Source: Halomarina pelagica | Lineage (GTDB): Archaea > Halobacteriota > Halobacteria > Halobacteriales > Haloarculaceae | Length of the DNA: 64,000 bases | Direction: 5' to 3' | Assembly: GCF_024228315.1 (NCBI RefSeq) | Contig: NZ_CP100454.1 | Coordinates: forward strand, 2,418,001-2,482,000 | Part shown: positions 33,711-38,878 of the stretch, one piece after another | How the letters are laid out: every line of letters begins with the position of its first letter | Position numbering within the stretch: the first letter of the stretch is position 1 | Position numbers and translations under genes: made by a program | Notes under the pieces: generated by a model | What the model was told of the DNA's origin: nothing | What the model saw: the letters and a program-made list of their open reading frames with translations, nothing else | Databases searched by the model: none

Positions 33711-33971
33711 ATGCCCGGTGACTTCCAGCTTCCGGCCAAGGGCGACGTGCTGGTCGAGTTGTACAACCAGTTCAACGAGGACCAGCAGGAGATGACGTAC
33801 GCGACGGTCACCATCCTCCACAACGGATGGGTCCGGTGCGTGCGGCGACCCGAAGACATGGAGACGGAGGCCGCGGCCGAGGGGGAGGCGGAGGTGGACT
33901 ACTACCCCCCCAGCACCGTCGGCGGCGTCTACACCATCGAGGACGAGAACGTCGTTCCCCTCTCTCAGTAG
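33711..33971 (+). CDS. Small conserved haloarchaeal protein, unknown
   Basis: 86 residues. PGDFQLPAKGDVLVELYNQFNEDQQEMTYATVTILHNGWVRCVRRPEDMETEAA then a strand-rich acidic tail. No family recognised and no motif suggesting a role. A TATA-like CTTAATG 31 nt upstream supports leaderless initiation at ATG 33711; the in-frame ATG at 33684 would sit on the promoter. Stand-alone gene between NYN and the dap operon leader. Confidence 0.65.
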   Translation: MPGDFQLPAKGDVLVELYNQFNEDQQEMTYATVTILHNGWVRCVRRPEDMETEAAAEGEAEVDYYPPSTVGGVYTIEDENVVPLSQ

Positions 33972-34118
33972 GGGGAGGGGGTCCGACCGACCGGTCCGTC
34001 GCCGGTAGCGTCGCGAGGGCGACTCGCCGCGCCCGTCGGGGTCTCGACGGACGCGTTCGCGCCGCGCGGTCTGACGCCGGCGTCTCCCGTCGGCAGAAAT
34101 TGGCGCGCGGCACAACCG

Positions 34119-34252
34119 ATAAATAGGTGGCGTCCCCTCGGACGAACATGCACCTCACGTCCCGCGAGAGCGGGAGTGCGGCCGACCCCCGTCGCAAACG
34201 CGCGTAGAGCGACGGGTTCACGGCGGGCTGGCACCCCGTCGCGGGCTGTTTT
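34119..34252 (+). promoter_or_regulatory. dap operon promoter with attenuator-like leader
   Basis: TATA-like ATAAATA (34119-34125) predicts a transcript starting at about 34148, leaving a 173-nt leader before dapA. In it, GCGACGGG (34209-34216) can pair with either of two identical arms: CCCCGTCGC upstream (34187-34195) or downstream (34234-34242). The downstream hairpin is followed by TTTT at 34249-34252. A GNRA-capped hairpin TCCCGC-GAGA-GCGGGA (34160-34175) precedes both. The upstream arm lies inside a 19-codon reading frame. This is the layout of a transcription or translation attenuator; which state is ON cannot be told from sequence. Confidence 0.55.
34148..34207 (+). CDS. Putative 19-aa leader peptide of the dap operon
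   Basis: ATG at 34148 lies 29 bp after the start of the TATA box, exactly where a leaderless start is expected, and the frame closes at TAG 34205-34207. The predicted peptide is MHLTSRESGSAADPRRKRA. The Lys codon is AAA (34196-34198), the less used lysine codon in this GC-rich sequence. It lies just after the upstream pairing arm (34187-34195), and the stop is 1 nt before the shared arm (34209). Such a position could make ribosome progress decide between the alternative hairpins. Translation is not demonstrated. Confidence 0.4.
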   Translation: MHLTSRESGSAADPRRKRA

Positions 34253-34320
34253 CGACGCGTATCGAACGATAGCCGCGCATCCAGCGCACTGACACATCAC
34301 ACCACACCAGACCACAGCAC

Positions 34321-35244
34321 ATGACGCACGAACCGTACACCGGAGTCTTCCCCGCACTCACCACGCCGTTCACCGAGGACGACCGCATCGACCACGAGAC
34401 GCTCGCCGCGAACGCCCGCCGACTGGAGGAGGCGGGCGTGGACGGCATCGTCCCCGTCGGGACGACCGGCGAGAGCGCCACGATGACCCACGACGAGCAC
34501 ATCGAGGTCATCGAGACGGTCGCCGGGGCCGTGAGCGAGGTGCCCGTCGTCGCCGGCGCGGGGAGCAACGCCACCCACGAGGCCGTCGCGCTCGCCGGGC
34601 GCGCCGCCGACGCGGGGGCCGACGGCCTGCTCCTCATCTCGCCGTACTACAACAAGCCCGAACCGGCGGGTATGGAGTACCACTTCCGGGCCGTCGCCGA
34701 CGCCGTCGACCTCCCGCAGATCGTCTACAACGTCCCCGGCCGCACCGGGCGCAACATCGCCGTCGAGACGGCCGTCTCGCTCGCGCGCCACGAGAACGTC
34801 GTGGGATACAAGGCGGCGAGCGGCGACCTCACCCGCGTCACGCGAGTCATCGAGGGGACGCGCGAGGAGTCGTTCACCGTCCTCTCGGGCGACGACGCGC
34901 TCACCCTCCCGATGCTCGCCATCGGCGCGACGGGGTGCATCAGCGTCACCGCCAACGTCGAACCCGAGCGCGTCTGCGCGATGGTCGGCGCGGCGCTGGA
35001 CGGCGACTTCGAGCGGGCGCGCGCGCTCCACCACGAACTCGGCCCGCTCAACCGCGCGCTGTTCGCCGAGACGAACCCGATCCCGGTGAAGGCGGCGATG
35101 GCGATGCGGGGGTACATGCCCGAGCGCATGCGCCCGCCGCTCTCGCCGCTGACCGACGGCAACCGCGAGGAACTCTCCGCAATCCTCGCCGCTCTCGATA
35201 GGAATACCCCTCACGAAGTACAAGCGCGACAGACGGAACCATGA
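34321..35244 (+). CDS. dapA: 4-hydroxy-tetrahydrodipicolinate synthase
   Basis: 307 residues, TIM-barrel Schiff-base aldolase that condenses pyruvate and aspartate semialdehyde, first step of the diaminopimelate/lysine branch. Motifs: GIVPVGTTGESATMT (Thr-Thr), YNVPGRTGRNIA with the catalytic Tyr, VVGYKAASGDL with the Schiff-base Lys, and LSGDDALTLPMLAIGATGCIS. ATG 34321 follows a 173-nt leader. It heads the six-gene dapA-dapB-dapD-lysA-dapF-dapE operon; its stop overlaps dapB by 4 nt. Confidence 0.95.
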   Translation: MTHEPYTGVFPALTTPFTEDDRIDHETLAANARRLEEAGVDGIVPVGTTGESATMTHDEHIEVIETVAGAVSEVPVVAGAGSNATHEAVALAGRAADAGADGLLLISPYYNKPEPAGMEYHFRAVADAVDLPQIVYNVPGRTGRNIAVETAVSLARHENVVGYKAASGDLTRVTRVIEGTREESFTVLSGDDALTLPMLAIGATGCISVTANVEPERVCAMVGAALDGDFERARALHHELGPLNRALFAETNPIPVKAAMAMRGYMPERMRPPLSPLTDGNREELSAILAALDRNTPHEVQARQTEP

Positions 35245-35984
35245 GAGTAGTCGTCACGGGCGCGACCGGGCGGATGGGACGGATCGTCCGCGAGGTAGCG
35301 GGGGAACGCGGGTGGGAGGTGCTTCCCGTCTCCCGCTCTGAGGGGACCAAGTACGAGCCCTCGAGCCTCGCGTCCGCCCTCGCCGAGGAGCGCCCCGACG
35401 CGCTCGTCGACTTCACCGTCCCGGCGGCGAGCGTCGAGACCGTCGCCACCTGCGCCGACGCGGGCATTCCGGCGGTCGTCGGGACGACCGGGTTCGACGA
35501 CGAGCAGTTGGACGCGCTCTGGGAGGCGAGCCAGTCGACTCCCGTATTGCACGCCCCGAACTTCGCCCGCGGCGTCGCGGCCCTGATCGGCCTCGTCCGC
35601 GAGGCCGTCGCCGCCCTCCCGGGCTACGACGTGGAACTCACGGAGACCCACCACCGCGGCAAGCGCGACGCGCCGAGCGGTACCGCGAACCGCCTGCTCG
35701 ACGCCGTCGACGAGGCGCGCGGGGCGTCCGCAGAGCGCGTCCACGGGCGACAGGGCGCGCACCTGCGCGGCGACCGCGAGGTGGGCGTCCACGTCCGGCG
35801 CGCGGGCGACGTCCGCGGCGAGCACGAGGTGCTGCTCGCGGGCAACGACGAGGTGCTGACGCTCACCCACCGCGCCGAGAGCCGGCGGGTGTTCGCCGCG
35901 GGGGCGCTCGACGCCGCCGCGTGGCTCGCCGGGCGCGAGGCGGGCTGGTACGACTTCTCGGAGGTGCTGAATGACGACGCTTGA
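35241..35984 (+). CDS. dapB: 4-hydroxy-tetrahydrodipicolinate reductase
   Basis: 247 residues. NAD(P)-binding motif VTGATGRMGRIV at residues 4-15, VDFTVPAASVE, VVGTTGF, and the catalytic signature ELTETHHRGKRDAPSGTAN with the His-His and Lys. It reduces the DapA product to tetrahydrodipicolinate. ATG overlaps the dapA stop (ATGA). Its stop lies 14 nt inside the dapD start, so translation is coupled. Confidence 0.95.
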   Translation: MRVVVTGATGRMGRIVREVAGERGWEVLPVSRSEGTKYEPSSLASALAEERPDALVDFTVPAASVETVATCADAGIPAVVGTTGFDDEQLDALWEASQSTPVLHAPNFARGVAALIGLVREAVAALPGYDVELTETHHRGKRDAPSGTANRLLDAVDEARGASAERVHGRQGAHLRGDREVGVHVRRAGDVRGEHEVLLAGNDEVLTLTHRAESRRVFAAGALDAAAWLAGREAGWYDFSEVLNDDA

Positions 35985-36807
35985 AACCGACGTAGGCGAG
36001 CTGTGGGATCGATACGAGGACGGCCTGACCGCGGGCGACGCGGGAGTGGACGAGCTGGCGACGCTCGACGCGTTCCTCGACGCGCTCGAGGCCGGCGAGG
36101 TGCGCGCCGCGGAGCGCGAGTCGCGCGCGGAGTGGCGCGCCGTCCCGTGGGTCAAGCGGGGCATCCTGCTCAACTTCGCCCTGCGCGAGACGCGCCCGCG
36201 ACAGTACGGCGACGTCACCTACCACGACGTGCTCCCGCTGCGCGAGACGCGCGACCTCGCCGTCCGCGGCACGCGAAACACGCCGGACGGGACCGTGATC
36301 CGCCGCGGCGCGTACGTCGGAAGCGACGCGATCCTCATGTCGCCGTCGTTCGTCAACGTCGGCGCGCACGTCGGCGACGGCACGCTGGTCGACTCCTGCG
36401 ACACGGTCGGCTCCTGCGCGCAGGTCGGCCGCGACGTGAAGCTCGGCGCGAACACGCTGCTCGGCGGCGTCCTCGAACCCGTCGAGGACGCGCCCGTGAT
36501 CGTCGAGGACGGCGTCTCGCTCGGAGCGGGCTGCCGGGTCACCTCCGGGTTCGTCGTAGGCGAGGGGAGCGTCGTGGGCGAGAACACGCTCCTCACGCCG
36601 CGCATCCCCGTCTACGACCTCGTCGAGGAGGAGGTCGTGTACGGCCACCTCCCGCCGGAGCGCCGCGCCTTCACGCGGTTCGTGGAGTCGAGCGTCGGCG
36701 ACCACGACCTGTTCGACGGCGGGGCGTACAAGCCCGCCGTCGTCGCGACGCACATCGAGGACCGCACGCTCGAGGCGAGCGAGCGGGAGGGGGCGCTGCG
36801 CGAATGA
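35971..36807 (+). CDS. dapD: Tetrahydrodipicolinate N-succinyltransferase
   Basis: 278 residues. The helical N-terminal domain is followed by a left-handed beta helix of hexapeptide repeats beginning VIRRGAYVGSDAILMSPSFVNVGAHVGDGTLVDSCDTVGSCAQVG and ending LGAGCRVTSGFVVGEGSVVGEN. It succinylates tetrahydrodipicolinate with succinyl-CoA, which means this organism uses the succinylase branch of the DAP pathway together with dapE. It overlaps dapB by 14 nt and lysA by 4 nt. Confidence 0.94.
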   Translation: MTTLETDVGELWDRYEDGLTAGDAGVDELATLDAFLDALEAGEVRAAERESRAEWRAVPWVKRGILLNFALRETRPRQYGDVTYHDVLPLRETRDLAVRGTRNTPDGTVIRRGAYVGSDAILMSPSFVNVGAHVGDGTLVDSCDTVGSCAQVGRDVKLGANTLLGGVLEPVEDAPVIVEDGVSLGAGCRVTSGFVVGEGSVVGENTLLTPRIPVYDLVEEEVVYGHLPPERRAFTRFVESSVGDHDLFDGGAYKPAVVATHIEDRTLEASEREGALRE

Positions 36808-38036
36808 CGGGGACGGGGGCGGCGGTGCGTCGGCTCGCGGACTGGGACGCCGCCCGACTCCGGGCGCTCGCCGACGAGTTCGAGACGCCGCTCTACGTCC
36901 TCGACCCCGACCGCGTCCGCGAGAACGCGGCGCGCCTCCTGGCCGCCTTCCCCGACGCGGACGTGAGCTACGCCGTGAAGGCGAACGCGACCCGAGCGGT
37001 CCTCGAGACGGTGCGCGACGCCGGCCTCGGCGCGGAGTGCGCCTCCGCGGGCGAGGTGCGGCGCGCGCTCGAGGCGGGGGTCCCCGGCCATCGGGTGCGC
37101 TACACCGCCGTCAACCCGCCCGCCAGCGACCTGGATTACGTGGTCGAGGCGTCCCGCGAGCACGACCTCGTGCTCACGGTGGACTCGGCGGACACCCTCG
37201 ACCGCGTGGCGGAGCGCGGCTACGACGGCCGCCTCTGCGTGCGCCTCAACCCCGGCGTCGGCGCGGGCCACCACGAGAAGGTCGTCACGGGCGACGCCCC
37301 GCAGTTCGGCGTCCCCTACGACCGCGCCGCCGCGCTCTGCGTCGACGCCAGGCGTCGAGGGTTCGACCTCGTCGGCCTCCACGCCCACGCCGGGAGCGGC
37401 ATCTCCGGCGAGGGGCTCGAGGCGCACCGCGAACTCGTCCGTCGGACGAGCGCGCTCGCGGAGGAGGTGGGCGACCTCGACTTCGCGGCGGTCGGGGGCG
37501 GCTTCGGCGTCCCCTACCGCCCCGCGGAACCGCCGCTCGACCTCGGCGCGGTCGCGGACGCGACCCGCGAGGCGTTCGGCGACCCCGGCGCGCGCCTCGC
37601 CGTCGAACCCGGCCGCTACGTCGTCGCGGACGCGGGCGTCCTCCTGATGCGCGTCACCGCGGTCACCGAGACGCCCGAGACGACCGTCGTCGGCTGTGAC
37701 GCCGGCATGACGACGCTGCTCCGCCCCGCGCTGTACGACGCGTACCACCACGTCCGCAGCCTCGCGCCCGACGCCGCCGAGCGCGAGTCGGTCCGCTGTC
37801 TCGTCGCGGGGCCGATCTGCGAGACGGCGGACGTGCTCGCCCGCGACCGACCCCTCCCCGCGCCCGCCCGCGGCGACCTCCTCGCCGTCGGGAACGCCGG
37901 CGCGTACGCCTACGAGATGGCGAGCCAGTACAACTCGCGTCCCCGCCCCGCCGTCGTCTCCGCGACGGGCGACCCCCTCGTCCGCCGCGAGACGCTCTCC
38001 GACCTCACCAGGCTCGAAGTACGACCAGAACAATGA
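36804..38036 (+). CDS. lysA: Diaminopimelate decarboxylase
   Basis: 410 residues, PLP-dependent fold type III. DVSYAVKANATRAVLE has the PLP Lys, HAHAGSGISGEG binds the phosphate, AVEPGRYVVADAGVL and GCDAGMTTLLRPALYDAYH supply the substrate site, and VAGPICETADVLARD plus NAGAYAYEMASQYN hold the second-subunit Cys and Tyr. It converts meso-DAP to lysine. ATG 36804 overlaps the dapD stop. It is placed before dapF and dapE although it acts last. Confidence 0.94.
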   Translation: MTGTGAAVRRLADWDAARLRALADEFETPLYVLDPDRVRENAARLLAAFPDADVSYAVKANATRAVLETVRDAGLGAECASAGEVRRALEAGVPGHRVRYTAVNPPASDLDYVVEASREHDLVLTVDSADTLDRVAERGYDGRLCVRLNPGVGAGHHEKVVTGDAPQFGVPYDRAAALCVDARRRGFDLVGLHAHAGSGISGEGLEAHRELVRRTSALAEEVGDLDFAAVGGGFGVPYRPAEPPLDLGAVADATREAFGDPGARLAVEPGRYVVADAGVLLMRVTAVTETPETTVVGCDAGMTTLLRPALYDAYHHVRSLAPDAAERESVRCLVAGPICETADVLARDRPLPAPARGDLLAVGNAGAYAYEMASQYNSRPRPAVVSATGDPLVRRETLSDLTRLEVRPEQ

Positions 38037-38878
38037 TCCCTGTAGCGAAGTACCACGGAACCGGCAACGACTTCATCGTCGTCGACGCGGACCTCTCGGT
38101 CCCGAACCGACGGCGATTCGCGACTGACCACTGCGACCGAACCTCCGGCATCGAGGGCCCGGACGGCCCCTCGGGCGCGGACGGCGTGCTCTTTCTCGCG
38201 CTCGAACCCGCCTTCGACCCGCCGCGGGTCATCATGACGCTCGTCCAGCCCGACGGCTCGGTCGCCTCGATGTGCGGCAACGGCGCGCGCGTCGCCGCCG
38301 CCTGGGCCGCGGACCGCACCGGCCGGGACGAGGTGATGATCGACACCCCGGCCGGGACGCGTCACGCCGTCGTCGGCGACGACGAGGTGACCATCGAGAT
38401 GGGCCGCCCGACGTTCGACCCGGGGTACGTCCCCGTCGCGCGCGACGAACCGATGGTGGGAGAACCGCTCGCCGGGCTCACGGTCACGGCGGTCAACACG
38501 GGCGTCCCCCACGCCGTCGCGTTCGTGGGCGACGTGGACGCGGTCGACCTCGAGGCGGTCGCGCCGGACGTCCGCCACCACGACGTCTTCCCGAAGGGCG
38601 CGAACGTCACCGTCGCGTCGGAGCACCCGGACGGCGGCGTCAGTCAGCGCACCTTCGAGCGCGGCGTCGAGCGCGAGACGCGCTCCTGTGGCACCGGCGC
38701 GGTGGCCGTCGCGGCCGTCGCGCGCCGCCTGGGCCGCGTCGGCGACGGCCCCCTCACGGTCCGCCCGCCGGGGGGCGACCTCACCGTCTCCTTCGAGGAC
38801 GGCCGGGCGTACCTCACCGGGCCGGTCGTCCACGAGTTCGACGCGGAACTCTCCGCCGCCCGACCGCGACGCGCCTGA
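38033..38878 (+). CDS. dapF: Diaminopimelate epimerase
   Basis: 281 residues, two-lobed racemase without cofactor. Both catalytic cysteines are present: VASMCGNGARVAAAWA (first lobe) and TRSCGTGAVAVAAVARR (second lobe). The N-terminal KYHGTGNDFIVVDAD is the family signature. It converts LL-DAP to meso-DAP, the lysA substrate. ATGA overlap with lysA; the dapE ATG follows 5 nt after the stop. Confidence 0.95.
   Translation: MIPVAKYHGTGNDFIVVDADLSVPNRRRFATDHCDRTSGIEGPDGPSGADGVLFLALEPAFDPPRVIMTLVQPDGSVASMCGNGARVAAAWAADRTGRDEVMIDTPAGTRHAVVGDDEVTIEMGRPTFDPGYVPVARDEPMVGEPLAGLTVTAVNTGVPHAVAFVGDVDAVDLEAVAPDVRHHDVFPKGANVTVASEHPDGGVSQRTFERGVERETRSCGTGAVAVAAVARRLGRVGDGPLTVRPPGGDLTVSFEDGRAYLTGPVVHEFDAELSAARPRRA

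Follow-up and report, generated by a model that had tools for sequence, protein, structure and literature searches.

Upstream of the dap operon of Halomarina pelagica lies a leader that is probably an attenuator governed by ribosome position and responsive to charged Lys-tRNA. Comparison with the leaders of relatives shows a promoter expected to start transcription at or close to the leader ATG, a Lys(-Arg) reading frame, a near-fixed distance between the Lys codons and a hairpin, covariation within that hairpin, and a U- or pyrimidine-rich tract behind it. From this arrangement we infer that the frame is translated and that transcription terminates, as well as the sign of the switch, which the sequence does not prove.

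The dap operon and its leader

The window, i.e. the whole stretch of 64,000 nucleotides that was analyzed, carries the operon on the plus strand in the order dapA-dapB-dapD-lysA-dapF, with neighboring genes overlapping by a few bases. All five products scored above their NCBIfam cut-offs: dapA, the first gene (34321–35244; TIGR00674, 330.8 bits against a cut-off of 206), dapB (35241–35984; TIGR00036), dapD (35971–36807; NF008808), lysA (36804–38036; TIGR01048), and dapF (38033–38878; TIGR00652). The DapA protein is 97% identical to that of Halomarina halobia, the nearest named genome by dapA.

All leader elements lie on the same strand as the operon. The promoter of the leader transcript is predicted to contain a BRE/TATA-like box, ACAACCGATAAATA, at 34112–34125, judging by its sequence and by a spacing kept across the class; its ATAAA lies 29 nt upstream of the ATG at 34148. 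Inspection of the window sequence revealed no TATA-like box 25–30 nt 5′ of dapA itself. The ATG opens a leaderless frame of 19 codons (34148–34207), which encodes MHLTSRESGSAADPRRKRA and has 134 distinct counterparts elsewhere; the peptide ends in RRKRA, followed by the stop codon TAG at 34205–34207. Its single Lys codon, AAA (34196–34198), is the predicted stall site and starts 19 nt from the base of the hairpin, at the long end of the range seen in the class. The preliminary description had called AAA the rarer lysine codon here, and this was borne out, with no AAA and 27 AAG codons in seven genes of the window.

The hairpin shared across the class occupies 34215–34247, as judged by covariation with controls and by an RNA-model match. 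It is built of an outer stem (34215–34220 with 34242–34247) and an inner stem (34222–34227 with 34235–34240) around the loop CTGGCAC (34228–34234), and a terminator-like U-tract, UUUU (TTTT in the DNA), is found directly 3′ of it at 34249–34252. In addition, the leader contains CCCCGTCGC twice, as an upstream arm at 34187–34195 and as a second copy at 34234–34242, and GCGACGGG at 34209–34216, which is capable of pairing with either copy. The coordinates of these arms, like those of the ATG, frame, stop, Lys codon, and TTTT, were all verified; the 8-bp stem of the preliminary description overlaps the class-wide hairpin without being identical to it. As a single sequence, the leader RNA folded only modestly better than shuffles (z −1.88); the case for the leader rests on comparison.

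Conservation of the leader frame in Halobacteria

Of the 391 Halobacteria genomes searched, 388 were found to encode DapA, and 171 dapA upstream regions were compared, of which 153, from about ten families, are non-redundant. A structure-aware scan of the non-redundant set located the hairpin in 149 of 153 leaders, and 139 additionally had a TATA-spaced frame ending beside it; many of the leaders are related, and these and the following counts are therefore not independent. The frames encode 134 distinct peptides with a median length of 26 amino acids and a Lys/Arg-rich C terminus. Lys accounted for 24.5% of the last eight codons, as against 0.8% elsewhere in the peptides and 1.3% in the genes of the window, although the choice of frame was biased to Lys codons near the end and to a TATA-like box, so that these two features are partly there by construction. 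Box-to-start spacing, scarcity of Lys elsewhere, the distance from Lys to hairpin, the Arg that follows, and synonymous codon use were not selected for.

Box and ATG stood 29 nt apart in 109 of the 128 leaders scored for this spacing. AAA made up 225 of the 283 leader Lys codons (the remaining 58 being AAG), compared with 3 of 65 in the dapA genes of named loci, and the last Lys codon was AAA in 111 leaders and AAG in 23. Arg came directly after the last Lys in 122 of 134 leaders, encoded variously by CGC, CGT, CGG, and CGA. Since synonymous codons vary while Lys-Arg stays, it is the amino acids and not the bases that are conserved. Arg equals Lys in frequency at the ends of the dap peptides, which a lysine-sensing reading does not account for.

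A conserved hairpin and the tract behind it

In an alignment of 42 sequences, 93.4% of the hairpin cells were paired, compared with 37–54% in slid controls. Changes on both sides were seen in 8 of the 12 pairs and involved 40 cells, where shuffles gave 9.4. An RNA model built from this alignment matched the genome of the window at 34213–34255 (E 1.7e-7). For most relatives the strong match of the model was the dapA leader, and second matches in the same genomes were near chance level. When 148 genomes drawn from the phylum were scanned, the model matched 20 of the 24 Halobacteria among them and not one of the 124 non-halobacterial genomes (a 24/124 split derived from the kinship column and the number of unlisted genomes). 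Three lineages within the class (f5, f11, and f12) have dapA without the leader and a fourth (f10) has it, so either the leader originated inside the class or those three lines lost it.

The loop core T[GA]GC is nearly invariant, as is a G-U pair of the inner stem, seen in 144 of 145 leaders; both hint at recognition beyond pairing. The TAG of the loop doubles as the stop codon in some dap leaders. In two Haloarcula-like leaders (L067 and L106) the hairpin occurs in tandem, as two near-identical copies after the leader frame. With regard to the features of an intrinsic terminator, the hairpin is present and the tract behind it is T-rich on average: T stood at 46% at positions +2 to +4 past the hairpin versus about 10% farther downstream (145 leaders), with a run of at least four T in just 26 of the 145.

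The preliminary description had proposed that the two identical arms compete for the single one, and it had named the leaders of relatives, examined for the paired arms and the frame, as a test. The outcome was divided: these leaders keep the frame and a hairpin, whereas conservation does not extend to the competing arms. Across 101 thinned leaders, pairing of the frame with the two hairpin arms was no better than in shuffles (mean z −0.15 and −0.07), compared with −3.2 for the control pairing of the 5′ arm with the 3′ arm, and competing arms were rejected as a class-wide mechanism. Likewise, no mutually exclusive antiterminator fold was detected across the class, in that neither the frame nor the downstream spacer paired with the arms above shuffles. 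The competition between 34187, 34209, and 34234 is limited to the window and close relatives. The shared arm is found in Halomarina and a few neighbors, and the upstream arm is not conserved, being clear by eye only in L003 and L004 among eight leaders of the same genus (L003–L007, L019, L024, and L079). An alternative 3′ stem, a downstream mini-hairpin sharing the outer 3′ arm, showed no covariation and was dropped.

Spacing between Lys codons and hairpin

The last Lys codon of the dap leaders starts 12–24 nt 5′ of the hairpin base, mostly at 13–17 nt and with a mode of 15, and not one of the 283 leader Lys codons lies closer than 12 nt. This distance is tighter (sd 1.9 nt) than that from the last Lys codon to the stop (sd 4.6 nt), and it is unchanged in the few leaders whose stop lies inside the hairpin loop. 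Such tight spacing points to the position of a Lys-paused ribosome relative to the hairpin as the quantity that has been selected.

Leaders of other biosynthetic operons

A hairpin of the GTAGGGG type was found in 61 of 63 ilvB upstream regions. Nearly all of these had a frame ending in I-V-G-A or I-V-G-V (as in IIVGA before the stop), some with one residue more, and the stop lay in or near the hairpin loop. The codon preceding GTA was Ile in 55 of 56 cases (ATT 45, ATC 10). Ile, Leu, and Val together made up 51% of the last eight residues, in frames whose choice favored these three, and Lys 0%. At argG, a GGGCC...GGCCC hairpin lies under a frame that ends in RPRPGR, RPRRPGR, or RVRPGLLA(Q/H) in 9 of the 10 genomes compared, and the remaining genome has a related frame; Arg reached 36% of the last eight residues and Lys again 0%. 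The absence of Lys from both sets of peptide ends indicates that the cognate residue tracks the operon. At ilvB and argG the cognate codons adjoin or overlap the hairpin.

The genome of the window has both leaders itself. Its ilvB leader (L257, C1 about 3146680), like about 60 others, has a leaderless frame ending in IIVGA or IIVGV whose stop falls within a GTAGGGGC hairpin loop, making it a second attenuator-like leader, and its argG leader (L351, C1 about 751908; set L347–L356) has a leaderless RPRPGR frame over a hairpin, a third attenuator-like leader. The upstream regions of hisG yielded no leader frame with conserved features, and those of trpD yielded no leader frame. Conserved TTGTACA-like boxes near the trpD promoter (L273–L285) suggest a transcription factor site rather than an attenuator. 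Upstream of aspartate kinase (L335–L343), a short frame follows a TATA-like box without clear cognate codons, and several of these loci share the upstream sequence GACCGGCAAGGCTTCGG.

Proposed mechanism and alternatives

Lysine sensing by a leader-peptide attenuator, as first proposed for this leader, is strongly supported by the class-wide frame, its Lys codons, their spacing, and the hairpin; the competition of two identical arms is not supported. In the mechanism that we favor, the RNA would start at or near the leader ATG, and a ribosome would load on its 5′ end while the leader is still being transcribed. With charged Lys-tRNA scarce, the ribosome would be held up at the Lys codons, just behind the hairpin; with lysine plentiful, it would reach the stop beside or inside the hairpin and then depart. 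These two positions would decide whether the polymerase reads on through the dap genes or ends transcription at the hairpin and U-tract. As no competing antiterminator is conserved, the role of the switch would fall to the stalled ribosome itself rather than to an alternative RNA fold. The expected physiological sign is more dap mRNA under lysine shortage.

Going by the footprint of the bacterial ribosome, one stalled on Lys at a distance of at least 12 nt would not cover the hairpin, and for a terminator hairpin this is the wrong sign; at ilvB and argG, with the cognate codons at the hairpin, a stalled ribosome would mask it. In Haloferax volcanii, ribosomal proteins and subunits of RNA polymerase co-purify (PMC8576121), and 59% of the transcripts of a reporter ended at a hairpin (PMC7237163). 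Archaeal terminators are U-rich tracts recognized by aCPSF1 (PMC8716108).

The same sensor might work with another sign or target, a possibility that we take seriously while rating it well below the attenuator. The hairpin would then be an ON structure that stays intact under a Lys stall and may protect the transcript or sustain the polymerase, for example against the termination factor aCPSF1/FttA; a ribosome at the stop would melt the outer stem and lead to termination or cleavage. The spacing fits this, as a ribosome stalled at least 12 nt (mode 15) upstream would sit just behind an intact hairpin, and one at the usual stop, a few nucleotides upstream, would cover the outer 5′ arm. The near-invariant loop core and G-U pair are also in its favor, as is the proposal that coupled ribosomes keep aCPSF1 from RNA (PMC8116511). 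Against it, the tract 3′ of the hairpin is terminator-like, and since a stall at ilvB or argG would mask the hairpin, a single rule would not fit all three operons.

Translational control by an upstream open reading frame is an unlikely alternative to attenuation. By stalling or reinitiation, the frame would gate the access of ribosomes to dapA, and transcription would not end prematurely; the leaderless frame upstream of a leadered gene speaks for this. Termination-reinitiation at archaeal gene pairs has been reported, going by a title cited in PMC12186497, although that title concerns overlaps or very short distances, and the spacers between hairpin and dapA are mostly tens to about 200 nt long. 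These spacers are not depleted in ATG (76 observed versus 76.6 expected; 65 of 146 contain one), and the T-tract would be left unexplained. Eukaryote-like scanning was dropped for the same lack of ATG depletion between the upstream frame and dapA.

There is little likelihood that the hairpin is a protein or small-molecule binding site next to an incidental frame. The nearly invariant loop core and single wobble pair would suit such a site; the synonymous variation at the Lys-Arg codons, the conserved promoter-to-ATG spacing, and the cognate leaders at ilvB and argG would not, and no Rfam model matched 33900–34500 to E 5 apart from a chance miRNA match. A chance frame and stem in GC-rich intergenic DNA, for which the weak single-sequence folding might speak, is refuted by the class-wide conservation with covariation and can be set aside.

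Comparison with known systems

The layout in which a leader peptide serves as a gauge of lysine has long been known in bacteria. The dap leaders share with the bacterial trp, his, leu, and ilv attenuators the short frame with clustered cognate codons, the GC-rich hairpin, the U-rich tract, and the position before a biosynthetic operon. They differ in that the frame is leaderless at the 5′ end of an archaeal mRNA, that there is one conserved hairpin with the stop adjoining or inside it and no class-wide antiterminator fold, and that polymerase, ribosome, and termination are archaeal. Also comparable is the Escherichia coli pyrBI attenuator, which senses UTP through polymerase pausing and has one terminator hairpin governed by ribosome position. 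There too the fate of the hairpin is set by the ribosome and not by an alternative fold, whereas the signal at dap would be aminoacyl-tRNA.

T-boxes and lysine riboswitches likewise control amino acid genes through RNA, but no frame belongs to them, and neither of their Rfam models had a match to E 5 in 33900–34500. Pairing of a tRNA 3′ end with the dap loop T[GA]GC would not be consistent, unlike in a T-box. T-box-like binding of the tRNA end by a UGGC loop, an idea prompted by the likeness of the loop to the T-box sequence, was dropped, given that UAGC is common in the loop and that Rfam gave no match.

Upstream frames have been described in haloarchaea. A study of transcription start sites in Haloferax volcanii (Babski et al. 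2016; PMC4983044) lists 16 in very long leaders, of 15–31 amino acids and all with low isoelectric points. Among them are frames of 26 and 23 amino acids before pheS and the gene for tryptophan-tRNA ligase (Table 2). That table does not include dapA, ilvB, or argG; the absence of dapA counts against the attenuator, though the table is confined to leaders of 150–250 nt and to peptides of low isoelectric point. The parts of the study that deal with these frames discuss no cognate codons, hairpins, or attenuation (PMC4983044).

Significance

Leader-peptide attenuation in archaea was not described in any paper found by a search of the openly licensed literature, and to our knowledge no such attenuator has been established in any archaeon. 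We lean, by a small measure, toward the broader view that Halobacteria have a general amino-acid attenuation of their own, separate from that of bacteria, in which a single hairpin is combined with a stalled ribosome as the switch and which would serve Lys (dap), Ile/Val/Leu (ilvB), Arg (argG), and perhaps other amino acids. If this is true, transcription-translation coupling exists in archaea and serves regulation. The dap, ilvB, and argG leaders would be natural and genetically tractable reporters of that coupling, at three operons at once, and such leaders would explain how haloarchaea control the synthesis of lysine, the branched-chain amino acids, and arginine.
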